Source: a virus
Direction: 5' to 3' (one strand)
DNA: 64,000 nt
Virus record (IMG/VR): IMGVR_UViG_3300022680_000058
Span: 1-64,000 of that record
Part shown: positions 3,873 through 57,122 of the stretch, one piece after another
Numbering within the stretch: the first letter of the stretch is position 1
How the letters are laid out: the number at the start of each line of letters is the position of its first letter
Translations under genes and position numbers: made by a program
Notes under the pieces: generated by a model
Told to the model about the DNA's origin: nothing
Databases searched by the model: none
What the model saw: the letters and a program-made list of their open reading frames with translations, nothing else

Positions 3873-4781
3873 TCAATCACCAACAGATGTATGGAATGAA
3901 AATTCACAACCACCATCTACTGGGCTGAGAATCGCCGCCTGACACTCAGAAAACCATCCATACACGACATGCCCATTTGAGTCTTGGGACCTTGTCTCTG
4001 GAGAGACCTCGAACGCCTCGGAGACCCAATCAGGAACATCACCTTGATAGGACAAGACCTCTCCCGTACCAATCGGGTCCTCAGCATGAGATGTCAACCA
4101 CTGAACTGCCTCAACAAGGGATTGATCAGCAGATTCAATCTGGACGCTCTCCTGCTTCTTTTTCGAGCCGGACTCTTTCGTTTTGACCCATCGTCCGAAC
4201 ACCATCTTCATACCCTTCTTGACGCCATGTTTGGCAAGCTCCTTCGCCGCCTCTTTCCCATGGGATTTGATGATGTCGGAAGCCCTCGATGGGTCTTTGG
4301 AGATCTGATCAAGAGCTTTTCCAGCAATACCTTTCAGCTTCTTCTCGATCCCCTTTTTGGGTTCCTCGCCCTTATCGTCCTTTTCCTCGTCGTCATCCTC
4401 AGCGCCAATCTTTTTCTTGATCTGCTCGGCGCCAGCTTTGACAGCCTCTTTGCCGCCCTCTTTCGCAGCATCGAGAGCTGCCTTACCAACAGCTTTCAAC
4501 GCATCTTTCGCAGCGCTTTTCAGTCGCCCAAGGATTCCTTGACTACCACCATTGTCACACTTGCTCGCTTCGACGAACTCATCAATAGCCTCGAAGACCA
4601 CATCAGAGTCATCCTCTGTCAATCCGTATGACGAGAAGATTCCGACAAACGCTTCAGCGATCATCTCGTCCGAGAAATCACCCACTCTCATGGATTGAAT
4701 GACATCCTCGGACAAGACGTCCAAGAGATGGTCATCAGAATGCTGGCATCGAGCCTCATCCAACCTCTGTGACAACCTCAT
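3873..4781 (-). CDS. Lys/Ala-rich amphipathic protein, 302 aa, with short capsid-tag-like N-terminus
   Basis: Begins MRLSQRLDEARC, closely like MQLSARLLEAMAG at 52228, with an L-D-E/A site. The centre (about 85-215) is extremely rich in Lys, Ala and Gly and forms long amphipathic helices (ALKAVGKAALDAAKEGGKEA) broken by an acidic stretch, then a basic part (GVKKGMKMVFGRW). The C-terminal 70 residues look like a small folded domain. Helices of this type can bind DNA or membranes. ATG 4781 follows GAGGTGAGAG. Probably a packaged or envelope-acting protein; function unknown. Confidence 0.6.
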   Translation of the reverse strand: MRLSQRLDEARCQHSDDHLLDVLSEDVIQSMRVGDFSDEMIAEAFVGIFSSYGLTEDDSDVVFEAIDEFVEASKCDNGGSQGILGRLKSAAKDALKAVGKAALDAAKEGGKEAVKAGAEQIKKKIGAEDDDEEKDDKGEEPKKGIEKKLKGIAGKALDQISKDPSRASDIIKSHGKEAAKELAKHGVKKGMKMVFGRWVKTKESGSKKKQESVQIESADQSLVEAVQWLTSHAEDPIGTGEVLSYQGDVPDWVSEAFEVSPETRSQDSNGHVVYGWFSECQAAILSPVDGGCEFSFHTSVGD

Positions 4782-29898: not shown

Positions 29899-30690
29899 TC
29901 AGTATTCGGAATCCCACTCATATTCAGCTTCAATGTCAATCGGAACAAAAAAACTGAACGTCCATGGGGCCTTTGATTTGAGAGATATTTTTCCAATATC
30001 TGCCTTCATCTCCAAGTCAACATCGATAACGATCTCACCGCTCGTTTCACGAGAAAATTCCTCATCCGTCTCTTCATTTGCCGCGTCAACAGCCTTGCGG
30101 GCAAGAGCCCTGAGAGCATCATCGTCAAACCCGTACTCTTTCTCCCAGGTCTTTACCATGCTGGAGAGCTCTTCATCACCAAAATGATCAACGACTTTTC
30201 TATCAGTCGCGACCTTTTGAGCAATCGACGGGCCAACAAACCCAGAAAGTTGTCTTTTGATGTTTGCGCTGAGTTTTGAGCTTGAGAGCTTGTTCACCCC
30301 GGAGTATGACAGCTCTCTTGGATATGACGCTTTAGCGAAAAACCATTCAGGGTCAGGATCGTCAGGCCAATCGAAGTGCTCGTAGGAACTTTCCAGCTCG
30401 TCCTCACGAACGACCTTGAACTTTGGGTTTTTGTTCTTGAGCGTCTTGTCGATCAAAACACCAACACTCGATTGGAGACCAGAGAGCACCTCTGAAATCG
30501 CATCTTCGAGCTTACCCCGATCCACATTATCAGCCCCATGCCGGATCAAGGCGTCAGAAATGACATCGACAGAAGATACTTTTTTCTTCCTGGAAGCTTT
30601 CCGTCTCGGCTTGCGAGCCTTCGGAGCTCTAACATTATAAGAAGTCCGTCCGGAAGCAATCGCCTCTAACAACTCTTGTGAACCCTTCAT
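29899..30690 (-). CDS. Tagged protein with basic N-terminus, 263 aa
   Basis: I start at ATG 30690 (MKGSQELLEAIASGRTSYNV) because GGAGGA lies 7 nt before it; an upstream in-frame ATG at 30708 is out of spacing. The N-terminus has the short tag (LLE/A..SYNVRAP) followed by a basic run (KARKPRRKASRKKK). The rest is helical with Trp-rich loops (FDWPDDPDPEWFFAKAS) and a beta-type C-terminus (FSFFVPIDIEAEYEWD). It has its own promoter and a terminator just upstream of it, so it is expressed separately. No family recognised. Confidence 0.65.
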   Translation of the reverse strand: MKGSQELLEAIASGRTSYNVRAPKARKPRRKASRKKKVSSVDVISDALIRHGADNVDRGKLEDAISEVLSGLQSSVGVLIDKTLKNKNPKFKVVREDELESSYEHFDWPDDPDPEWFFAKASYPRELSYSGVNKLSSSKLSANIKRQLSGFVGPSIAQKVATDRKVVDHFGDEELSSMVKTWEKEYGFDDDALRALARKAVDAANEETDEEFSRETSGEIVIDVDLEMKADIGKISLKSKAPWTFSFFVPIDIEAEYEWDSEY

Positions 30691-30740
30691 TTCTGGCTCC
30701 TCCAGCATTCATTGTATCAAACAGCAATGAATCCTTCACA

Positions 30741-40332: not shown

Positions 40333-40737
40333 TTACCCGATCTTCCCTGCCCGCCTTCCGAGATAGGCGCAGAAGGCAGCCGGGTCCTTGACTCCAGAAC
40401 AGCACGCCTCGACGTACTTCTCACAGGTGTCAAAGGCGTCGCCTTTCCCACCCTTGAAGTCGCCCTTGGCGGTGCGATACTTCTTCCCGCACTCGCTGTC
40501 GCACTTCATGGCTTCTGTGAGCGCCATGGAGAGGATCTCCGGGTCGAGACCCATCACGCCAGCCATGTCCTCAGCAACAAACTGAGACGCCTCTTGAAGG
40601 TGCCAGCAAGGAGCCTCAGGACCATCACACCCTTCGTCGTCCTCGGTGAAGAGGTTTTCGTCATCCTCTTCATGGATCTGTTCATGGGAGTCATCTCCCT
40701 GAATGATGTTCCTGAGCTCCTCTGCCAACGACTTCAT
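40333..40737 (-). CDS. Acidic protein with Cys-rich C-terminus, 134 aa
   Basis: Begins MKSLAEELRNIIQGDDSHEQ, similar to the start of 2399-3364. An acidic, likely disordered stretch (EEDDENLFTEDDEGCDG) follows, with an HLQE/A site. The C-terminal 55 residues (CDSECGKKYRTAKGDFKGGK, then TCEKYVEACCSGVKDPAAFC) match the Cys spacing of 48845 (C..KYR..., DC...F..C..., VC.SI). Probably a small disulfide or metal-stabilised domain. Between sheath and decoration genes. Confidence 0.6.
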   Translation of the reverse strand: MKSLAEELRNIIQGDDSHEQIHEEDDENLFTEDDEGCDGPEAPCWHLQEASQFVAEDMAGVMGLDPEILSMALTEAMKCDSECGKKYRTAKGDFKGGKGDAFDTCEKYVEACCSGVKDPAAFCAYLGRRAGKIG

Positions 40738-46112: not shown

Positions 46113-46538
46113 CTACAACATACTCCGACCACCACCTGAAACCACTGGCCACTTCCCTCCCTGGTATGGGTTCGGCTTCAAAACGTTCCTGACATACAAG
46201 TCCTTCACCCGATCGAGCCGAGACTTCTCCATGTCAGGGGGTGGGACGACCCACACAAGATACTTTTCCGGGTCCACATCCACTTCGAGAGTCGTCCCCG
46301 ACGAAACGTCTCGAACCCGAACAACACCAATGGCAGGATCAACCTGAGTGATTCGACCATGCTTGATGATGTTCTTCCCCTTCTTTGACCTCACAGTGAC
46401 CAACTGCCCAGCCATCAGGTTTACCCGCTCTGCCGCCTCCTCCAGCCTCGCAGAGTTTTCCACGATGTCAGAGACCTCGGATTCCTGTAAGGCTACAATC
46501 GCCTCTCTGAGGACCGCATTGATGCGCTGAACATCCAT
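46113..46538 (-). CDS. Long-tag protein with KOW/SH3-like core, 141 aa
   Basis: Begins MDVQRINAVLREAIVALQES, the long tag, with an LQE/S site at residue 19. After a short helix, GQLVTVRSKKGKNIIKHGRI, DPAIGVVRVRDVSSGTT and the DVDPEKYLVWVVP end look like a small SH3/KOW barrel, a fold that binds RNA, DNA or protein. ATG 46538 shares a base with the stop before it (TGATG). Confidence 0.6.
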   Translation of the reverse strand: MDVQRINAVLREAIVALQESEVSDIVENSARLEEAAERVNLMAGQLVTVRSKKGKNIIKHGRITQVDPAIGVVRVRDVSSGTTLEVDVDPEKYLVWVVPPPDMEKSRLDRVKDLYVRNVLKPNPYQGGKWPVVSGGGRSML

Positions 46539-47170
46539 CAGACCGGAACTCCCTCGTAGCCAATGACACCCTTGATGTCCATGACCATCTCTCCGACCTT
46601 ATCGACCTGTGATTGGGCAAATGTTCTGGCGTCACCCTTCGATGATGTGAAGAAGATTCCGCGAGACCCCCATCCGCGTCTCACTGTCTTGACATAGACA
46701 GCACTTTCCCGCTCCTTTGACACCTTGATCAGAAATCTCTTCTTTCCACCCTTGCTGGCGCCCCCACCCTGAGCTTCGAGTTCTGCCAAAGTTTCACGAC
46801 CGAGCTGTGTAATGGACCACTTCTCAATCTCGGAGCCATCATCGTCACCCTTGTAGACCTCCATCACAATGAGGCCAAGATCCTCCATCTTGTAGAGGGT
46901 TGGAGTGAACATCCCCGTGATTGCTTTCGTGCCCATCGGGGTCGTGTACCACTTCCAGTAGTACCCAGTCCCAGGGTGCCTGGTGTAGAGGGTCCCATGG
47001 TCAGCAAGGTTTCTGAGCGTCTGCACAGCCTTTGGGGCGAGCCTTGGGAGCTTCTTCCCCTTCCGCCCTTTACCCTTGCTCGACAACTGTTTTGGCGTCG
47101 GAATTTCGTATCCACCGAGCTTCGTCTCACTAATTGCCGCATGAAGTTGTGCTGAAAGTTTAGGCATCAT
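46538..47170 (-). CDS. Short-tag protein with winged-helix-like domain, 210 aa
   Basis: N-terminus KLSAQLHAAISETKLGGYEI then PTP, followed by a basic linker (SSKGKGRKGKKL). Residues about 45-135 fit a winged helix: AVQTLRNLADHGTLYTRH, then FTPTLYKMEDLGLIVMEVY and WSITQLGRETLAELEA. The C-terminal part is a separate alpha/beta domain (FLIKVSKERESAVYVKTV). A DNA-binding domain on a tagged protein would fit a regulator delivered with the DNA; this is inference. Start ATG 47170 overlaps TGA. Confidence 0.6.
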   Translation of the reverse strand: MMPKLSAQLHAAISETKLGGYEIPTPKQLSSKGKGRKGKKLPRLAPKAVQTLRNLADHGTLYTRHPGTGYYWKWYTTPMGTKAITGMFTPTLYKMEDLGLIVMEVYKGDDDGSEIEKWSITQLGRETLAELEAQGGGASKGGKKRFLIKVSKERESAVYVKTVRRGWGSRGIFFTSSKGDARTFAQSQVDKVGEMVMDIKGVIGYEGVPV

Positions 47171-47730
47171 CAAATCCTGTCGTGTTCCGTCTTTCGGAAC
47201 GGCACGAACTTCGACCTAAGCTTGACCTCGATCTTGAACTGAACGAAGGTTGATGTCGTGAAGACATTTCCATCCCTGGTAGCCTTCACTACATCCCACT
47301 GACTGAACTGAGACGAGTTTCCGAATGGAACCTCTGACCAAAATTCGATAATGTCGCCCTTCTTCGGATACGGGGCGCTCCTGTCCTCGAACTCTTTTCT
47401 TGAAATCCAGATGACAGCCTCAGACTCCGTTCTCGCACCCTGCTCACTTGCTTCCACAGTGACATTGTCCGACTGTGGATAGTCAATCGCCGCATAGAGC
47501 TCGAAAGGCCCGTTGTACGACCAATCCTTCCCCTCATGAGAGGGCTCTCCATAAACAGGATCTCGATTCTTAGCTCTACGAAGCTGATAGAGCTTCACAG
47601 GCTCTCCAGCGAGCCTGGCAGGCTCTGTAGCAACGGAGTCCCACAACGCTTGTTCCGTGCCACAATCATCACAATCGCTGCCCGGAAAGATGCGTCTCGT
47701 GGGCTCGCAGTCGTCGCTACAGAACCCCAT
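47170..47730 (-). CDS. Neck-type protein with N-terminal zinc cluster, 186 aa
   Basis: Starts MGFCSDDCEPTRRIFPGSDC with four to five Cys in the first 25 residues. The body has PVKLYQLRRAKNRDPVYGEP and a beta barrel PYPKKGDIIEFW...DVVKATRDGNVFTTSTF ending in VEVKL-type strands, like head-tail connector proteins of marine myophages. ATG 47730 overlaps the stop of the tagged gene before it (TGATG). Confidence 0.55.
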   Translation of the reverse strand: MGFCSDDCEPTRRIFPGSDCDDCGTEQALWDSVATEPARLAGEPVKLYQLRRAKNRDPVYGEPSHEGKDWSYNGPFELYAAIDYPQSDNVTVEASEQGARTESEAVIWISRKEFEDRSAPYPKKGDIIEFWSEVPFGNSSQFSQWDVVKATRDGNVFTTSTFVQFKIEVKLRSKFVPFRKTEHDRI

Positions 47731-48314
47731 CACCACCACCCCTGATATTTCGCCGGTGGCCTCTTCTGAGCATGTCCAGTAACAGACCTGGCGATATTTC
47801 CAAGCTTCTTGGCATAGTTCGTGATTTTGCTGGCGAGCGTCTTGATCCCTCCCTCATCATCAATCGAGACATTCTTCCCGATCGTCATGAGCTCTGGGTA
47901 CTCATCAACCCACTGGTCCACAACCATCTGAGCATCTTTCTTCCGGTCAAAGAATGTCCCCTCATACCCGCCAAAAGCCATGCTCATCCCAGTTGTGGCA
48001 TGAGAAATAACCCACGAAGTTCCTTTATGGCTCTTGTGAACAGCCCAGACACCTTTGACATACGCCTTGATTGGCTGCTTCGTGTGCCCCTCATCATGGA
48101 ACATGTTCGGGACACGGATCTTGATGGTTTTCCCCGACCATCCAGTCGGCCCTTTCTTCCCCTTCTTCGGCGACTTCATCCCAAAAGTCCCTGGAGCACG
48201 AACATCATAGCTCGTTACACCAGAGGCTATTGCCTCAGCCATTACGGCGATCTCATCTTCTTGAAATGTTGAAATCGCCGTCACGAGAACAGTGTTGACC
48301 GTGTGAACATCCAT
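47730..48314 (-). CDS. Long-tag protein, 194 aa
   Basis: Tag MDVHTVNTVLVTAISTFQED with FQE/D at residue 19, then MAE/AIASGVTSYDVRAP, so both tag blocks are present. A Lys-rich linker (MKSPKKGKKGPTGWSG) follows, then a folded domain with IKIRVPNMFHDEGHTKQPIK, GTSWVISHATTGMSMAFGGY and FDRKKDAQMVVDQWVDEYPE. Basic C-terminal tail. No family recognised. Confidence 0.6.
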   Translation of the reverse strand: MDVHTVNTVLVTAISTFQEDEIAVMAEAIASGVTSYDVRAPGTFGMKSPKKGKKGPTGWSGKTIKIRVPNMFHDEGHTKQPIKAYVKGVWAVHKSHKGTSWVISHATTGMSMAFGGYEGTFFDRKKDAQMVVDQWVDEYPELMTIGKNVSIDDEGGIKTLASKITNYAKKLGNIARSVTGHAQKRPPAKYQGWW

Positions 48315-48841
48315 CACATATCTGCCTTGAACGCAAGGTGCGCTTTCAGAGCTTCGAGGATGTCCTTGTAGACGTCTTTCACGGTTCTGCCCGACGTGAT
48401 GATCGATGCCTTACCATGGTTGAGAACGCCGCCGACATCAACAGAGCTCGGGTTGATGAACATGTCAATGTTCTTCTGCCAGCCGACCTTCTTCTCATCG
48501 AAATCGACGAAGACCTGTCGTCTGTCCTTCTTCTTCCCGGTTCCCTTGTAGCCCTGGTAGACCCTCTTGGTTCCTGGGAGGTCTTTCTTGAGCTTCTTGA
48601 GCTGCTTCAAGAGCGCCGTAGAAAACTTGACCCTCTCTTCGAGAGTCCCCCCGCCAGTGATCCCCGCTGGAGAGAACTTCGATGGAGGAGGAGGAGTATA
48701 CTGCTGTCCACGAGGGGACGGAACTCTGTACACCCCGGTGACACCATGAGCCATCGCCGCCTCGTGGAGGTCGTCAACCTCACACTCCTGGAAGAAAACA
48801 ATGGCTTCGACCAGTGTCGTATTGACCGCCTGAATGTCCAC
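48314..48841 (-). CDS. Long-tag protein, 175 aa
   Basis: Start is GTG 48841 (VDIQAVNTTLVEAIVFFQEC), preceded by GGGGTGAGCT. FQE/C at residue 19 and LHE/AAMAHGVTG..VPSP at about 27-44. A Pro/Gly-rich linker, then TLEERVKFSTALLKQLKKLK and RRQVFVDFDEKKVGWQKNID, ending in DVYKDILEALKAHLAFKAD. Mostly helical and basic cargo. Unknown function. Confidence 0.6.
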   Translation of the reverse strand: MDIQAVNTTLVEAIVFFQECEVDDLHEAAMAHGVTGVYRVPSPRGQQYTPPPPSKFSPAGITGGGTLEERVKFSTALLKQLKKLKKDLPGTKRVYQGYKGTGKKKDRRQVFVDFDEKKVGWQKNIDMFINPSSVDVGGVLNHGKASIITSGRTVKDVYKDILEALKAHLAFKADM

Positions 48842-48844
48842 AGC

Positions 48845-49171
48845 TCACCCCTTTTTCTTGGTCCGGTTCTTCATGATGCTGACGCAAACGCCTTCCGGCT
48901 CTTTCGCCTTGGAACACCGTCGGAAAGCATCAACACAGTCTGAGAAGCTATTGAAGTCCTTCCCTTGCTTGTCTCGGTACTTCCGCATGCAGTCAGGTTC
49001 GCTCTTGATGGGACCTGTGGGCCGCTTCCGCTCCTTGCCCTTCTTCCCCCTCTTGGCAAGCGCCGCCGGTGTTGGAGGCGTGTATGCCGCCTCGGAGATC
49101 CCATCGATGTCCGCTTCCTGAAAACCGATGATTGCTTGAAGGAGAACCGAATTGACCTGCCCGATATCCAT
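48845..49171 (-). CDS. Long-tag protein with Cys motif, 108 aa
   Basis: MDIGQVNSVLLQAIIGFQEA with FQE/A at residue 19 and ISE/AAYTPPTP next, then a basic linker (AKRGKKGKERKRPTGP). The C-terminal 50 residues have DCMRKYRDKQGKDFNSFSDC, then FRRCSKAKEPEGVCVSIMKN: the same Cys spacing as in 40333. First 60 nt are very similar to the start of 49175 at DNA level, pointing to recent duplication. Confidence 0.65.
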   Translation of the reverse strand: MDIGQVNSVLLQAIIGFQEADIDGISEAAYTPPTPAALAKRGKKGKERKRPTGPIKSEPDCMRKYRDKQGKDFNSFSDCVDAFRRCSKAKEPEGVCVSIMKNRTKKKG

Positions 49172-49174
49172 GAC

Positions 49175-49768
49175 CTACCTCGCTTCACCAACACCAACGG
49201 ACTCAAAGGCAGGATCGCCCTCCATTTTGTCCGCATGGGGATAATACCTCATGGTGTAAAGCCAGCCCTTCAATGGGGCAAGCCCACCAGTTCCATAATA
49301 CTCTGTCGTGAACCTGCCCTTGAACGCCTTGCCGCCGATCTTTGTCCTGAGTGTTTTTGCGACATCTTTTGCAATCTTTGGAACATCTTTCGACTTGCCA
49401 TCGTCAGCGTCCATGAAGATAGAAACCTGGAATTGCGGTCCAAGCTTCTTCGAGACGTCCTGACCAAAAGTGTGGCCTGTAGCACGGATCGAAATCTTGG
49501 GGTACTTCTGCTTGAACTTTTTGTCCAATTCAGAGGCTATCGCGATGATTCTCGATCCGTAGATTCTCTCGAAGTGTTTAGCAAGGTGCATCTTGCTATA
49601 CCGCTTGAACTCCTCAGGACTCGGCACATGGAATCCAGACCCGTACTTCTCTCCGGTAGCGCTCGTTCTGTACGGCTTCCCGACGATGTACACTGACTCT
49701 TCGAGCTCACTCTCTTGGAAGCCGATGATCGCCTGAAGAAGAACCGAGTTGACTTGCCTGATATCCAC
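49175..49768 (-). CDS. Long-tag protein, 197 aa
   Basis: I start at GTG 49768 (VDIRQVNSVLLQAIIGFQES): GGGGTGAGGGC precedes it and the result aligns with the neighbouring tags, whereas a frame from 49804 does not. The tag is followed by SGFHVPSPEEF and a cargo domain with MHLAKHFERIYGSRIIAIAS, SIRATGHTFGQDVSKKLG and FQVSIFMDADDGKSKDVPKI. Looks like a complete alpha/beta domain. Not recognised. Confidence 0.6.
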   Translation of the reverse strand: MDIRQVNSVLLQAIIGFQESELEESVYIVGKPYRTSATGEKYGSGFHVPSPEEFKRYSKMHLAKHFERIYGSRIIAIASELDKKFKQKYPKISIRATGHTFGQDVSKKLGPQFQVSIFMDADDGKSKDVPKIAKDVAKTLRTKIGGKAFKGRFTTEYYGTGGLAPLKGWLYTMRYYPHADKMEGDPAFESVGVGEAR

Positions 49769-49772
49769 GCCC

Positions 49773-51227
49773 TCACCCCTTGCCCAACAATTCAACAATA
49801 TCATGCACAGGGACCCAGCCGGGAGATGTTTTCAGAAGAGGGAGACTCTTGAGCGCCTCTTCTGCTTCGACCTGCTCCGGATCTGACCCAAGTTTCTTGA
49901 GCTCACGAACGACCTCGAATCGCTCTCCATCCTGAGTCACTGTGTGAGCGGACCTCTCGTCAGTGAACTTTCCGTCTTTCCCGTGGTAGGTCTTCGACTC
50001 GCCGAACACCTGTTTCCTAGCCTTGACGAGCTTGATCTTCCTCTGGAACTTCCCCTGAACGTCGTCACCCTCGAAACCAACCTTGTTGAGGTAGATTTCT
50101 GTCGCACGAATCCACTCCCGCTGTCGGTGGGCTTCTTCGTCCCGATCATCCACAGAATGCATGAGAGCGAGACCAGCCATGGCCACCCCGTACCAGAATG
50201 GACTCGATGACCTTAGATGACGAAACGCCGTGTCGTCGTCGATGTCACTCCACGTCCAACCAGTACCACCCTGGTAAGACGTCTTTGCCCTTGTCGTTCG
50301 ACGAACCTTCGCCTTGGCAAAAGCGATATCGAGGAGCTTATCAGCGAGACGCCTCGCAGGATGCCTTGTCATCATCCTCGGGACGAAACGTTTCAACATC
50401 TCAGGATTCGCACGAGATGACATCCTCATGAAGTTCTTCTCGTTCGAAACAGCCTCTCGGTCCTCGGGCACGTCAACCCTCTTGGCCCAATTGACACCCT
50501 TCATGTACTGAGACGTGTCACGCCTGAGGTTTGGCAACGGGACATCAACATCAACCCCAGCGAGCTCAACCCCCATGGTCTTTCTTGGACCCGAGGCCTT
50601 GTCCTTCTTCCCCATCACATCCTTCTCTGGGTTGATGTCCTCTGGGTTCAGGTACTTGCTCCTGAGCTCACGAGCTGTTCTCTGTACGTAGTCCTCACGT
50701 TCGCTCTTCGGCAACGCCCCCTTGAGCGCCGATCCAGCCATCGCCACGCCATACCAGAACGGATCAGTCTTGAGGAGGTCACCAGGAACTACCCCATGGA
50801 ACTGATACCCGCCCCGAGTTGTCCCTACGCGCCTCATCTTATCGGCGACCAGATCCACTGGGTGAGTGATGTTCGCCACGACAGTCCCCTGGTCGAGCAA
50901 GACAGCGATAGACTTCCTGTCCATCTTCTTCGCCCCCTCCAGGCTCTTCGTGATGGACCTGAGCTTCGGGTCCTCGAACTCGGGCAGATCCTTCGTCATG
51001 TTTTTGTTCGCCCAGTTGACACCCTTAACAAACTGAGACTGGCGTCCAGGGGATGTGTTCGGGACCTTGACGTCAGCCGTGACGCCCCCATAACTGATGA
51101 TCGGCTTCTGCCGATAGAGAGGCGTCGGGTCCTTCTCCACTTTCGGCGGCGCCGGAACATCAAAAGACGTCACTCCCTTGGCGACTGCTTCATCAACGCG
51201 GCTGAAAAGATTGCCCCACCTACTCAT
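49773..51227 (-). CDS. Short-tag protein with two copies of a novel module, 484 aa
   Basis: I start at ATG 51227 (MSRWGNLFSRVDEAVAKGVT), since the upstream frame overlaps another gene out of phase. VDE/AVAKGVTSFDVPAP is the short tag. Then follow two modules of about 150-190 residues: module 1 (about 44-185) with GGVTADVKVPN, HPVDLVADKMRR and LKTDPFWYGVAMAGSALKGA; module 2 (about 205-395) with GVDVDVPLPNLRR, HPARRLADKLLD and LRSSSPFWYGVAMAGLALMH. A third copy is the whole gene at 51644. C-terminal 85 residues are separate. New family to me. Confidence 0.65.
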   Translation of the reverse strand: MSRWGNLFSRVDEAVAKGVTSFDVPAPPKVEKDPTPLYRQKPIISYGGVTADVKVPNTSPGRQSQFVKGVNWANKNMTKDLPEFEDPKLRSITKSLEGAKKMDRKSIAVLLDQGTVVANITHPVDLVADKMRRVGTTRGGYQFHGVVPGDLLKTDPFWYGVAMAGSALKGALPKSEREDYVQRTARELRSKYLNPEDINPEKDVMGKKDKASGPRKTMGVELAGVDVDVPLPNLRRDTSQYMKGVNWAKRVDVPEDREAVSNEKNFMRMSSRANPEMLKRFVPRMMTRHPARRLADKLLDIAFAKAKVRRTTRAKTSYQGGTGWTWSDIDDDTAFRHLRSSSPFWYGVAMAGLALMHSVDDRDEEAHRQREWIRATEIYLNKVGFEGDDVQGKFQRKIKLVKARKQVFGESKTYHGKDGKFTDERSAHTVTQDGERFEVVRELKKLGSDPEQVEAEEALKSLPLLKTSPGWVPVHDIVELLGKG

Positions 51228-51235
51228 GACCAACC

Positions 51236-51640
51236 TCACACAGTTTTCTCGATGTCCCTGAACAGATCCTTGAATCGCTTGTACTTCGCCGGGGCTTCTT
51301 TTTCCATGGCGTGCTTCATCGTCCGGCGAGCTCCCTTCTGAGTCTGCCTGATGCTCGACACCTGACCGCCCTTCTTGTAGGGGGGCTTCAGGTATCCATT
51401 GCGAGTCATCGCCCAACGACAGATGTTCCACGCCGCACGAACGCTCTTCTTCTTCCCACCATTCTTGCCATCTTTCACAGCGACGATACAGTGAGCAAGC
51501 TGAGCTGGAACCCTGTCGACCTTCGCCGCCGCCTTCGAGCCGCCTGGCTTCTGTTGCTGGCGAGGAGGTTTCCTCCTCAGACCTCCACGGGGAGCTTGGC
51601 GCCTCTCAAGAATCATCTCGACTGGTACCCACAGACTCAC
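51236..51640 (-). CDS. Basic protein with CIxxV...ICxxA motif, 134 aa
   Basis: Start GTG 51640 (MSLWVPVEMILERRQAPRGG). The first residues resemble 56904 (MWIPVRWLLEANKL). Arg/Lys/Gln-rich linker, then AHCIVAVKDGKNGGKKKSVR followed by AAWNICRWAMTRNGYLKPPY, a two-Cys helical pattern seen in several small phage proteins. The C-terminus is basic and helical (MKHAMEKEAPAKYKRFKDLF). Likely a nucleic-acid or capsid-associated protein. Confidence 0.55.
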   Translation of the reverse strand: MSLWVPVEMILERRQAPRGGLRRKPPRQQQKPGGSKAAAKVDRVPAQLAHCIVAVKDGKNGGKKKSVRAAWNICRWAMTRNGYLKPPYKKGGQVSSIRQTQKGARRTMKHAMEKEAPAKYKRFKDLFRDIEKTV

Positions 51641-51643
51641 AAC

Positions 51644-52228
51644 TCACCCCACACACAGATCGTTGCAGATGTTCGAGAAGTATTTCTTCTTCAAGGCTAC
51701 AACCTCTCGGTCGACGTAGTCATCCTTCTGCCTCATCGTGAGGGAGCGAATGAGCGCCTCCCCGACCATCCCGACAGCGTACCAATAAGGATCGGTTTCC
51801 AGCATCTGGTCTGGTACCGTTCCGTCGTACCTGTAACCGGCTTTCTGTGAAGCCATAGCGATCAGCTTCTTCGCCACCCGCTCAACAGGATGCCTCATCA
51901 CAGACTGATACCGACCAGACGAAAATCCGGAACGGACAGCTCCAATGTTCCGGCCAGACTGCTTCTCGATCTCACGAACAACGAACGCCAAACCCTCATC
52001 AGGAGGTGGCGGGTCCTTCAAGACAGTATCCTTCACCCACTCGACGCCGAGCCTGAACTTCTCGTTCGTCCACGCAGACCCCGCTGGCGTCTTCACAGTA
52101 GCGCTCACAGGCCCGTAAGAAACTCTGAGGGGGACTCCACCCCTGGTCACCTTCCTTTGCATTTGAGACGGCGTAGGCACCTTGTATGAGCCAGCCATCG
52201 CCTCCAGCAACCGAGCGGAGAGCTGCAT
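51644..52228 (-). CDS. Short-tag protein with one copy of the novel module, 194 aa
   Basis: MQLSARLLEAMAGSYKVPTP is the short tag with LLE/A; a basic stretch (SQMQRKVTRGG) follows. From about residue 34 the module begins (SYGPVSATVKTPAG) with RHPVERVAKKLIAMASQKAG and LETDPYWYAVGMVGEALIRS, aligning with both modules of 49773. Ends CNDLCVG. ATG 52228 follows GGGGTGATAC. Unknown function. Confidence 0.65.
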   Translation of the reverse strand: MQLSARLLEAMAGSYKVPTPSQMQRKVTRGGVPLRVSYGPVSATVKTPAGSAWTNEKFRLGVEWVKDTVLKDPPPPDEGLAFVVREIEKQSGRNIGAVRSGFSSGRYQSVMRHPVERVAKKLIAMASQKAGYRYDGTVPDQMLETDPYWYAVGMVGEALIRSLTMRQKDDYVDREVVALKKKYFSNICNDLCVG

Positions 52229-53725: not shown

Positions 53726-55219
53726 TCAGAGTCCGCCAGTGATTGCGACGCGCCCGAACCATTCGCTCCTCAAGAGCTTGGTTGCATATCGGGTCCTCAT
53801 CCCCTTCTTGTTCGTCTGATCCTCAGGATCTTGGAACGTCTGGGTCATTTGAAGGGGGACGTATGGGCTGAAGACGAAGCCCGCATCCAGATAGCTGCGA
53901 CCACGGAGGCCAAGCATGATGTTGTTCCAGGAGAAGAAGGGGTCTTGGTATCCCCACCACTTGTTGGAGAGGGGACCCATCTTGAGGATGCCCTGGTGCG
54001 AGGTCATGGGACCGTAGCTCGGGGGCACCTGGATGCCATCGAAGGGGCCTTGAACGCCAGCACCGGAGGAGATCCATCCGGGGCGATAGTCGCCATGGGT
54101 CTGGGTCTGAATGAGCTTGGCCGAGACGTCGGGACTGGTGACGTACCAGTTTGCCGGGGCTCGGAGGGTTTGCTTGTGGATCTCGAAGCTGACGGCGCTC
54201 ATCCGAGTCATGACAGCTCGGATGTGGTCGACCTCGGAGAGACCAGCAGGAACGGTGAAGTCGAAGGTATCGGTGATACCCGCCGACGCCGCATAGAGCT
54301 GGTTGATGATGTCGCGGTCGATTTCGAGAGCGACTTCCTGGGCGATGCCGCCGACGAGCTCTGTTTCGGCGTCGAGCCCGTGGAACGCTCGGAGGTCATC
54401 CTGGGCCTCAGAGCTCCAGCGAGCCTTGAGCTTGCGGGTTTGAGCCTGGATGGGCAGGAAACTGATGTCGATGTAGACATCCGGGATGTTCCGGTTGCCT
54501 TCCATGTCGTACCAGTAGGTCACCCGAACGATGTTGCCATTGGTGGTGTTGACGCCGAACTGGAAGTTCGTGATCTGGCCATTGGCATAGTTGATGGTAC
54601 CAGAGGTCGCACCAGTGAACCCACCAGATCCATTGTCGACGTGACTTTGGACGATGATGTCCGCAGTCGCGTTGTACTCCTCGACCGTCACCGAGTAGCC
54701 CAGGTCGGCGTCGAGCGGACGAACTGGGTTGTACTGAAGGATGGTCGCACCAGAACCACCAGCCGGTGACCACTCCTGAGCAGCAGTGATATCAGCGAGC
54801 TTCTCATACTCGATCTTCTCGGAGGAGTAGAGCGAGTCGAAGTTCTGGATGAGGTTCGAGCCAGCCGTGGTCCCTCCCTTGGAGCGGCCATGCTTGAACT
54901 CGAAGTAGAAGACCGCACCGACGGGAGAAGTCATCGGCTGGACCGAGACGATCTCGTTGGCGATCAGGTTGGGGAACACCCTCCGGAGAACCGGAAAGAT
55001 GTACTTCGTGTACGATCCCGCGTTGGTCGAGAGCGTGTCCTCTTCGAGCTGCCGACGCATGTCACGGAACTGGTTCTCCATGAGCATGGCCATGCACTTG
55101 CGGGTGTAGTCTTCCTGGATGCCGCCGAGGTAGCGACCCCATTTTTTGACGAGCAGAGAAGTATATCGCTGGTCGCGAATCGTCTCACTCCCTGCCTCGT
55201 TCAGATTTTGTCTACTCAT
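53726..55219 (-). CDS. Major capsid protein, gp23-like, 497 aa
   Basis: Contains the T4-type block YTKYIFPVLRRVFPNLIANE, IVSVQPMTSPVGAVFYFEF and, further on, the P-domain strands (VTYWYDMEGNRNIPDVYIDI). The N-terminus MSRQNLNEAGSETIRDQRYT contains LNE/A, a hydrophobic-X-Glu/Ala site that a T4-type protease could use, though the cut, if any, is not proven. Conserved C-terminus with FVFSPYVPLQMTQTF. HK97-fold shell subunit. Follows protease-scaffold directly and is insulated by the terminator. Confidence 0.9.
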   Translation of the reverse strand: MSRQNLNEAGSETIRDQRYTSLLVKKWGRYLGGIQEDYTRKCMAMLMENQFRDMRRQLEEDTLSTNAGSYTKYIFPVLRRVFPNLIANEIVSVQPMTSPVGAVFYFEFKHGRSKGGTTAGSNLIQNFDSLYSSEKIEYEKLADITAAQEWSPAGGSGATILQYNPVRPLDADLGYSVTVEEYNATADIIVQSHVDNGSGGFTGATSGTINYANGQITNFQFGVNTTNGNIVRVTYWYDMEGNRNIPDVYIDISFLPIQAQTRKLKARWSSEAQDDLRAFHGLDAETELVGGIAQEVALEIDRDIINQLYAASAGITDTFDFTVPAGLSEVDHIRAVMTRMSAVSFEIHKQTLRAPANWYVTSPDVSAKLIQTQTHGDYRPGWISSGAGVQGPFDGIQVPPSYGPMTSHQGILKMGPLSNKWWGYQDPFFSWNNIMLGLRGRSYLDAGFVFSPYVPLQMTQTFQDPEDQTNKKGMRTRYATKLLRSEWFGRVAITGGL

Positions 55220-55254: not shown

Positions 55255-56895
55255 TCAGCGCTGGTTCTCTGGAATACCAGAGAGTTCATCGAAGGCATCA
55301 TCCGTGAGTCCGAAGCCTTCGACCAACGCGCCCGATTGGCCCTCACCGTTTTTGTCTCTCCAGGGCTCCGACGTCCCGTCCCTGAACGGGTTCTCTTCCT
55401 CTGACAGAGCCCTTCTGTTCCCCCGACTCACACGAGAACGGATTCGTTCTGCCTCGTCCTGGTCGAGAGCTCTCGTTCGTCGAGCACCAAAGGATCTGAT
55501 GACCCTTTCGGCGCCATCGATATCTGTGATCCCCTCACAGAGATCCACGACCTCTTCACCTTGCGGGTGTGCCGTCTGGACCCCTCTGAGGTACGACTCG
55601 ATCTGAATCGTCTCTGCAATCTGGATGGCCTCCTTCAGCTTCGACTTGGCGTGGTCCGCCTCCTCAGTCGCTTTCGAGAGCTTTCCCTCCAGATTTGCGA
55701 TCCTCTCACGGAGCTTGGCTTCGATGTCATCAGGTTCGTCATCCTCAGTCTTTGCCGAAGAGAGTTCGCCCTGAATAGCCTCAATCCGCTCGTCAATCTC
55801 GCTGACGTTTTTGAACGACTTCACATCTCCCACGAGCTTGACGATGGTGTCCCTTGAAGGGTCTCCACTCAACTTCCGCTCCATGTGGAGTCTGTATGTC
55901 GCCTCTTTCGCCACCTCAGCCATTTCGGCGTACTTCTTTTCCGCCGCCTCGACCTCCAACTCCTTGTCAGAGACCCTCTTTTCGAGCTCAGAAACCTTGC
56001 CCGACTGGTCATCCGCTCCATCACCTGTCGGAGTCGACGACGCGAAACTCGTGACGAGCCCAGCAATCTGCTCCAACACCTGGATGGCGCCACCGACCTC
56101 CGGGTCGTTCAGTAGTTCCTGTCGAACCCTCGTCTCGGCAGCCTCATCGAGCTTTTCGATCTTGCGAAGGAGTTCGTTCGAGAGCTGCTCCCTGACCTCC
56201 TCCTCGATCAGAGCACGCTCGGGAGACTCGACGTCTTCCCTGATCGGCTCCCCATCACCATCTGCCAGCGGACAGCCACAGCCCTCTCTGAGAGCCGCTG
56301 CTGCGAATTCATCCGCGAGACCTGGGTAGTCACGCTTGAAGGACTCCAAGGTGAAGTCTCCGTCACCTGGGACCTTCTCGATCTCTTCCTGGAAGACCTT
56401 GGGGTATGCAGTCTTTGTCGCTGGGTCTGCCACGAAGTCAAAAGTGTCCAGTCTGAAATCTTCCTGAACCTCCATAATCCCATTCGGGAGCGCCTTCGTG
56501 GAACCGAAACCTCGGCTACTGACACCGACCTTGGCCCCCGCCTCGGCCAGGGTCTTCATGATGCGACCCATAGGAGTGTCGAGGAGCTCAGCCTCCCCAA
56601 TGACTGAGTTCCCCTCAACACGAAGATTCGTGAGCAAGTGACTGACACGTTGAAGCTTGGTTCTTCCGTCAGCCGGATGATCGAGCTCTCCGAACGCCCT
56701 GCGATCTCTCATCGCCTCAGACAGTCGCCCGATCTCACGCCGCCAAAGATGCTCTCTGTAGAGACGCTTGTTCTCGGTTGGCTTATCAGACCTGGCGAAT
56801 TCGCCCTTCATGACGAGCTTGTGAGGCTTTGATGAGTCTGCCGACTCCTGCAAAGCACACGAAAACGTCATGGTGTCGATGAGCAGCTCAGCCAT
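55255..56895 (-). CDS. Prohead protease fused to scaffold, gp21-like (family S77), 546 aa
   Basis: Residues about 25-185 are the protease: LVMKGEFARSDKPTENKRLY, FGELDHPADGRTKLQRVSHL (probable catalytic His) and AGAKVGVSSRGFGSTKAL (probable catalytic Ser). From about 190 to the end follows a long acidic, coiled-coil region (LIEEEVREQLSNELLRKIEK, VSDKELEVEAAEKKYAEMAE) that looks like the scaffolding core. In T4, protease and scaffold (gp21, gp22) are separate proteins. The protease would mature the capsid and cut tag-bearing packaged proteins. Long C-terminus may be removed by itself. Confidence 0.8.
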   Translation of the reverse strand: MAELLIDTMTFSCALQESADSSKPHKLVMKGEFARSDKPTENKRLYREHLWRREIGRLSEAMRDRRAFGELDHPADGRTKLQRVSHLLTNLRVEGNSVIGEAELLDTPMGRIMKTLAEAGAKVGVSSRGFGSTKALPNGIMEVQEDFRLDTFDFVADPATKTAYPKVFQEEIEKVPGDGDFTLESFKRDYPGLADEFAAAALREGCGCPLADGDGEPIREDVESPERALIEEEVREQLSNELLRKIEKLDEAAETRVRQELLNDPEVGGAIQVLEQIAGLVTSFASSTPTGDGADDQSGKVSELEKRVSDKELEVEAAEKKYAEMAEVAKEATYRLHMERKLSGDPSRDTIVKLVGDVKSFKNVSEIDERIEAIQGELSSAKTEDDEPDDIEAKLRERIANLEGKLSKATEEADHAKSKLKEAIQIAETIQIESYLRGVQTAHPQGEEVVDLCEGITDIDGAERVIRSFGARRTRALDQDEAERIRSRVSRGNRRALSEEENPFRDGTSEPWRDKNGEGQSGALVEGFGLTDDAFDELSGIPENQR

Positions 56896-56903
56896 TTCAA
56901 CTC

Positions 56904-57122
56904 CTACCGGGACCTGATTTCTCCAGAACGATACTGGCTCCTAGCCAGTAGGTCACCGAGACGCTTCTTGGGTCTTTTCCGCTTCGGGACAATTTTCTTC
57001 TTCCCCTTAGCCTCGAACCCAATCCTGTCTCTGACCGTCCCTCCAAGTCCAAGGATGTCCCGTCGGCGACTCCGATGTTTCAGCTTGTTGGCTTCCAAGA
57101 GCCACCGAACGGGAATCCACAC
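56904..57122 (-). CDS. Small basic protein, 72 aa
   Basis: Start GTG 57122 (MWIPVRWLLEANKLKHRSRR) with AGGG 8 nt upstream. W-[IV]-P-V start is shared with 51236. Middle DILGLGGTVRDRIGFEAKGK, then a Lys/Arg run (KKKIVPKRKRPKKRLG). Could be a DNA-neutralising core protein, like T4 gp68-type factors, in view of its place between core protein and protease genes. Not firmly assigned. Confidence 0.55.
   Translation of the reverse strand: MWIPVRWLLEANKLKHRSRRRDILGLGGTVRDRIGFEAKGKKKIVPKRKRPKKRLGDLLARSQYRSGEIRSR

Follow-up and report, generated by a model that had tools for sequence, protein, structure and literature searches.

Probable capsid-targeting propeptides with exchangeable leaders on a varied set of proteins in an uncultivated T4-like phage

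Why do five neighbouring phage genes encode proteins that begin with the same peptide and continue with different sequences? The genes lie in the window, by which we mean the whole stretch of 64,000 nucleotides analysed here, taken from the start of an IMG/VR contig of 147,979 bp from an uncultivated T4-like phage. An earlier note on this DNA had described a 19-residue tag ending in Phe/Leu-Gln-Glu and had proposed that the tag brings cargo proteins into the prohead, where a gp21-like protease would cut it off. All five genes are on the minus strand, with their first bases at 46538, 48314, 48841, 49171, and 49768 (here and below, a slash within a sequence marks a known or predicted cut).

46113–46538, minus strand: cargo 1, 141 aa, long leader and KOW/Tudor-like barrel; tag at about 46458–46538 (E 2.6e-10); predicted cuts IVE/N (residue 27) and RLEE/A (residue 34)
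47730–48314, minus strand: cargo 2, 194 aa; tag 48234–48314 (E 1.3e-7); predicted cut MAE/A, then SYDVRAP
48314–48841, minus strand: cargo 3, 175 aa; tag 48761–48841 (E 8.2e-6); predicted cut LHE/A, then VYRVPSP
48845–49171, minus strand: cargo 4, 108 aa, Cys-containing; tag 49091–49171 (E 1.7e-13); predicted cut ISE/A, then AYTPPTP
49175–49768, minus strand: cargo 5, 197 aa, GTG start; tag 49697–49768 (E 4.5e-10); predicted cut LEE/S (residue 24) or FQE/S, then GFHVPSP

In order to avoid circularity, seven tagged genes of the related contig L020, which are also present in L005 and L006, served as the sole source of the tag profile, and this was then run against all stop-to-stop frames of the 147,979-bp genome. 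This independent profile recovers all five window tags (E 1.7e-13 to 8e-6), and the shared N-termini are therefore real. Exactly nine tags were found in the genome, the four further ones (E 1.8e-6 to 0.004) being located at 104.1–106.9 kb (three, minus strand) and at 119.5 kb (one, plus strand), 55–70 kb from the window five. The next match had an E value of 2.1 and the best match from five shuffled copies one of 1.3; a possible but weak tenth tag (E 0.009) belongs to a HExxH protein. The 19-residue block of the earlier note thus exists but is part of a tag of about 27 aa with the consensus M-D-[IV]-x-x-[VI]-N-x-x-L-x-x-A-I-x-x-[FL]-Q-E-x-E-[IL]-x-x-[LIM]-x-E/A, and the five genes are part of a set of nine, or ten with the weak match. 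M1, D2, N7, L10, and I14 are invariant in the alignment of all 16 tags (nine from this genome and seven from L020). As in T4, one leader is common to several genes, here nine, with different bodies.

Outside this genome, a search of IMG/VR with a strict DNA pattern for the long tag matched a single close relative, represented by three contigs. The pattern also gave 26 matches in 85k bacterial and archaeal species genomes, which we read as chance (best profile E 0.006). A diverged long tag, MNIxxVNxxLDRALLxFHED, starts a protein encoded between tail-completion genes in other relatives (L019:14009, L023:12001, L024:5419, L015:17227, L042:4651, L021:11023), and the acidic body of this protein varies between groups.

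It had also been supposed that similarity between the starts of 48845 and 49175, the most similar tag pair in the window, indicates recent duplication. This does not hold: the two tags are 69% identical in nucleotide sequence over 26 codons and have flanks without similarity. They differ by nine synonymous codon changes, and codons 1–19 contain a single amino-acid change besides the start codon. Since synonymous changes are many, amino-acid changes few and the flanks unrelated, the tags are, judged by their codons, old and kept by selection on the protein rather than freshly copied.

The bodies behind the tags are different. Comparison of the tagged cargoes with Pfam and PHROG gave nothing above the cut-off, and the KOW and other cargoes had no match among sequenced phages. 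Cargo 2 has an orthologue in L020 that is likewise long-tagged (L020:16792) and cargo 4 has one at L020:15026, and the bodies of 48314 and 49175 have no relatives in the sister contigs. Several genes (40333–40737, 48845–49171, and 51236–51640) have small, basic domains that contain Cys and resemble each other in pattern (C..KYR...GDF...D..D.C; HC..AV...RAAWNICRW).

T4 gp21 cuts after L/I-X-E (PMC9026906). An [LIM]xE motif, usually followed by Ala, is found within residues 20–28 of all 16 tags, compared with a mean of 5.06 after shuffling, and none of 5000 shuffles reached 16. An [LIMF]xE motif at residues 16–19, the FQE of the earlier note, is present in 12 of the 16 tags and has been lost in the four distant copies (GLQFA, GLQGG, AFQIE, NLLDG). 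According to the gp21 rule the site in residues 20–28 is the better fit, and the leader ends in the same L/I-x-E motif as in T4. The proposal of a cut after FQE19 was right about a hydrophobic-x-Glu site in the tag, but FQE19 is probably neither the sole nor the main one. FQE19, together with an LxE at residue 12 in a few copies, may provide extra predicted cuts, and in two tags (49175 and L020:16276) the second site lies four residues earlier. Propeptides with several cut motifs occur in phiKZ and SPN3US (PMC5694885, PMC9026906).

A T4-type head is encoded in the window, including the large terminase, the portal, a gp21-type protease, and a gp23-like capsid protein.

53726–55219, minus strand: gp23-like major capsid protein; predicted cut QLEE/DTL after residue 60, aligned with LTE/A of T4
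55255–56895, minus strand: gp21-type protease with a long C-terminal extension (probable scaffold); PF03420, E 2e-18

The protease gene had been recognized correctly, as the Pfam match is accompanied by the GELDHP (His) and GVSSRG (Ser) motifs in common with T4 gp21. Its long, coiled-coil-like C-terminal half suggests that protease and scaffold are probably combined in one gene. Near its N-terminus the protein has a candidate site, ALQE/S, and L-x-E/[SAD] near residue 17 is kept in its relatives. The capsid protein matches proteins in 2,473 phage records, each with less than 60% identity, and L-x-E/D-T-L occurs at the position of the T4 gp23 site LTE/A in every clade member aligned. A gp21-family protease and a putative L-x-E site at the gp23-equivalent capsid position are thus present together, as in T4. 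The large terminase (60995–64285) has an apparent intein in its Walker A loop (GGSIGWGK/C...VVVHN/SFF) with a LAGLIDADG-like segment, as seen in the translation.

The long tag is not the only leader of this kind. The predicted structure of 46113–46538 has one long helix (residues 3–34) holding the whole tag and then a small barrel of five strands (pLDDT about 85) with weak Tudor/KOW fold matches. Orthologues of this cargo in six related contigs are 29–59% identical and start with a short MxLxxxLxE/A leader instead of the long tag (MNLSAQLYE/A, MKLSEQLHE/A, MRLSTQLME/A, MTLYDDLIE/A, MSLHSDLHE/A, MTLHDELRE/A). A strict pattern of the short leader gave 16 matches in 15 records and none in the reversed control. 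By eye the short leaders resemble the N-termini of T4 gp22, gp67, and gp24, which are too short for a homology test; T4 gp22 (MLKEQLIAEA), gp67 (MEGLIEA), gp24 (MAKINELLRES), and gp21 (MNEPQLLIET) all start with similar short L/I-x-E peptides. In the related contig L021 (1369–9812) about ten genes in and around the interval between capsid and sheath genes start with MxLSxxLxEA. Further leader-bearing genes in the window are:

3873–4781, minus strand: possible cargo, short leader MRLSQRLDE/A with a second site MIAE/A (pattern match, translation)
29899–30708, minus strand: probable cargo, QELLE/A, then SYNVRAP
46538–47173, minus strand: probable cargo, other leader MPKLSAQLHAAISE/T, then GYEIPTP (motif search, ORF list)
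49773–51227, minus strand: probable cargo, leader MSRWGNLFSRVDE/A (VDE/A), then SFDVPAP; all-helical domain in two copies
51236–51640, minus strand: probable cargo or core protein, MxWIPVxxLIE-type leader (VSLWVPVEMILE/R); family in ten contigs
51644–52228, minus strand: probable cargo, short leader MQLSARLLE/A, then SYKVPTP (pattern match); all-helical domain as in 49773
56904–57122, minus strand: small core-region protein, leader type MxWIPVxxLLE/A; family in sister contigs

The families of 51236 and 56904 start with a third leader type, MxWIPVxxLIE/A. One all-helical domain stands behind two leader types within the genome, once in 51644 and twice in 49773 (domain matches of 32–33% identity); its fold had no match in PDB or BFVD. 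The predicted structure of 51644 comprises a disordered leader (residues 1–29) and then the folded domain (pLDDT about 90). Taken together, the leaders appear to be modular: the clade has at least three types ending in hydrophobic-x-Glu, and one cargo can wear different ones.

Two large, adjacent leader-bearing proteins encoded outside the window carry HEMGHH and HELGH, the signature of zincin metallopeptidases.

Genome 106,925–108,877 (L027:5925–7877): HExxH protein, HEMGHH; leader LIE/A
Genome 108,879–110,318 (L027:7879–9318): HExxH protein, HELGH; leader MRLSDVLLE/A

They match two proteins of the 485-kb uncultivated huge phage LR745208.1, and these relatives share another N-terminus, TLVDR[YF]L, which is perhaps that phage's own leader. 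A pattern search for the HExxH bodies found no relatives in IMG/VR, and there was no match in PDB.

The enrichment of the cut motif was determined in a census of ten contigs, in which the variable genes between capsid and sheath were compared with conserved structural genes. A single automatic rule assigned the start codons in the two groups; this makes the data noisier without biasing the comparison. The motif [LI]xE[AS] occurs in residues 5–33 of 31 of 88 variable genes and of 1 of 67 structural genes; the p value of 2.6e-8 is indicative only, as the genes are not phylogenetically independent. At residues 60–88 of the same variable proteins it was found in 1 of 70, and some variable genes of the interval have no leader. 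Genome-wide, [LIM]xEA at N-termini is mildly raised (17 compared with about 7 expected, p 0.002), as most genes are not cargo.

The claim that the bodies are unrelated needs qualification as well: the bodies differ, but four of the five window proteins have a YxVP[ST]P-like element just past the predicted cut. Whatever the leader type, most leader-bearing proteins have an element YxVP[STA]Pxx[ML]xx[KR] a short way past this cut. It is found at 29899–30708 and 46538–52228 in the window, in L027 (104–110 and 119.5 kb of the genome), in L020, and in L002. A [YF]x[VI]P[STA]P-like sequence is present in eleven leader-bearing census genes and in 51644 (for example, GYTVPSP, SFDVPAP, and SYKVPTPQQMHRR). 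The element was counted 13 times in the 10,773 residues of the N-terminal zone as opposed to three times in 27,111 residues elsewhere. In the 119.5-kb gene it is doubled in tandem, and in 51644 its region is predicted to be disordered, ahead of a well-folded domain. From its position the YxVPSP element would stay on the mature protein. Loading with two signals can be imagined, in which the cut-off tag leads to the prohead core, the retained YxVP[ST]Pxx[ML] is a second docking or ejection signal, and ten or more unrelated proteins, zinc-protease-like enzymes included, are loaded behind exchangeable leaders; we hold this tentatively and think it rather doubtful.

How are these observations to be explained? 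We consider it highly probable that the shared N-terminus is a T4-type capsid-targeting propeptide, in a system whose leaders are new and interchangeable and whose many cargoes include the two HExxH proteins. This reading is supported by the finding that relatives have another leader in front of the same cargo, by the L-x-E at the T4-equivalent capsid site and near the protease N-terminus, by the location of tagged genes far from the neck genes, and by the strong N-terminal enrichment of [LI]xE[AS] in variable over structural genes. The Phe of FQE speaks against it, as gp21 prefers Leu or Ile, and so do the shifted second site in two tags, the variable genes that have no leader, and the doubtful homology of the tag sequence to the T4 internal-protein leader. 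The main alternative of the earlier note, that the tag stays uncut and docks its proteins, as accessories of neck or tail, at the neck or head–tail junction, agrees with the position of the five genes between the head–tail adaptor (52232, PHROG Ad2 match) and the tail genes. Yet it fits poorly and appears improbable to us: four of the nine tagged genes, at 104–107 and 119.5 kb, lie among non-structural genes and thus outside the neck and tail block, the conserved structural genes of the interval do not have the motif, and the conserved L-x-E sites would be left unexplained.

That second tag cluster among non-structural genes would rather suit an address within the infected cell, for instance a membrane or replication body, for proteins that never enter the virion. 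Such an address would explain neither why hydrophobic-x-Glu sites are shared with the capsid protein and the protease nor why leaders are swapped within the head block, and we regard it as very improbable. Still less do we believe that the tagged genes are ordinary paralogues with a slowly evolving N-terminus and a diverged rest. Although the genes are arranged in tandem and certain bodies, those of 49773 and 51644, are related to each other, the orthologues of one body keep 57–59% identity despite a different N-terminal leader, and the predicted folds of the bodies differ (barrel vs. all-helical).

If the leaders are capsid-targeting propeptides, the amphipathic tag helix would attach each protein, once synthesized, to the scaffold core of the prohead. 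During head maturation the gp21-type protease would cut after hydrophobic-x-Glu, mainly at [LIM]xE/A near residue 27 as the sites suggest, and in most copies possibly also at FQE19. The cut would release the mature cargo within the head, whereas the tag fragments would leave. By analogy with the T4 internal proteins, the cargo would travel in the head, probably be ejected with the DNA, and act early in infection; for an action in the host after ejection we see about an even chance. If this is true, the leaders allow the set of injected proteins to be read from the sequence for a group of uncultivated T4-like phages. As T4 internal proteins inhibit restriction enzymes, the lineage-specific cargoes are promising as new proteins of counter-defence or host takeover. 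Moreover, the exchange of leaders on one cargo amounts to a natural experiment on what a targeting leader must contain, and it agrees with a leader that would suffice to package a foreign protein.

Similar addresses are known from other phages. In phage P1 an N-terminal address brings the anti-restriction protein DarB, and also a reporter, into the head (PMC9024508), but this concerns one protein with an unrelated sequence and head-assembly system. The inner head proteins of SPN3US and phiKZ (gp53, gp54, and homologues) include two diverged paralogues with an identical N-terminal propeptide and several cut motifs (PMC5694885); these systems differ in their A/S-x-E cut rule, in propeptides often longer than 100 aa, in having paralogous cargo, and in belonging to another phage group. 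Closest is the capsid-targeting sequence of IPI, IPII, IPIII, and Alt of T4, a short N-terminal propeptide on otherwise unrelated proteins with a hydrophobic-x-Glu end, a gp21 protease, and a cargo set that varies between phages (PMC9026906, PMC12373910). T4 Ip1–3, each of which acts against different GmrSD restriction enzymes, have the leader alone in common (PMC12373910), and 48314 and 49175, without relatives even in sister contigs, show the same pattern. In contrast to T4, the leader here has about 27 aa and another sequence with two or three candidate cuts; there are nine or more cargoes, alternative leaders per cargo, the YxVPSP element after the predicted cut, and HExxH cargoes. By analogy, then, the system works like the internal-protein system of T4, of which it is a putative member, and what is most likely new compared with the three small proteins of T4 are the novel interchangeable labels and the larger and more varied cargo.
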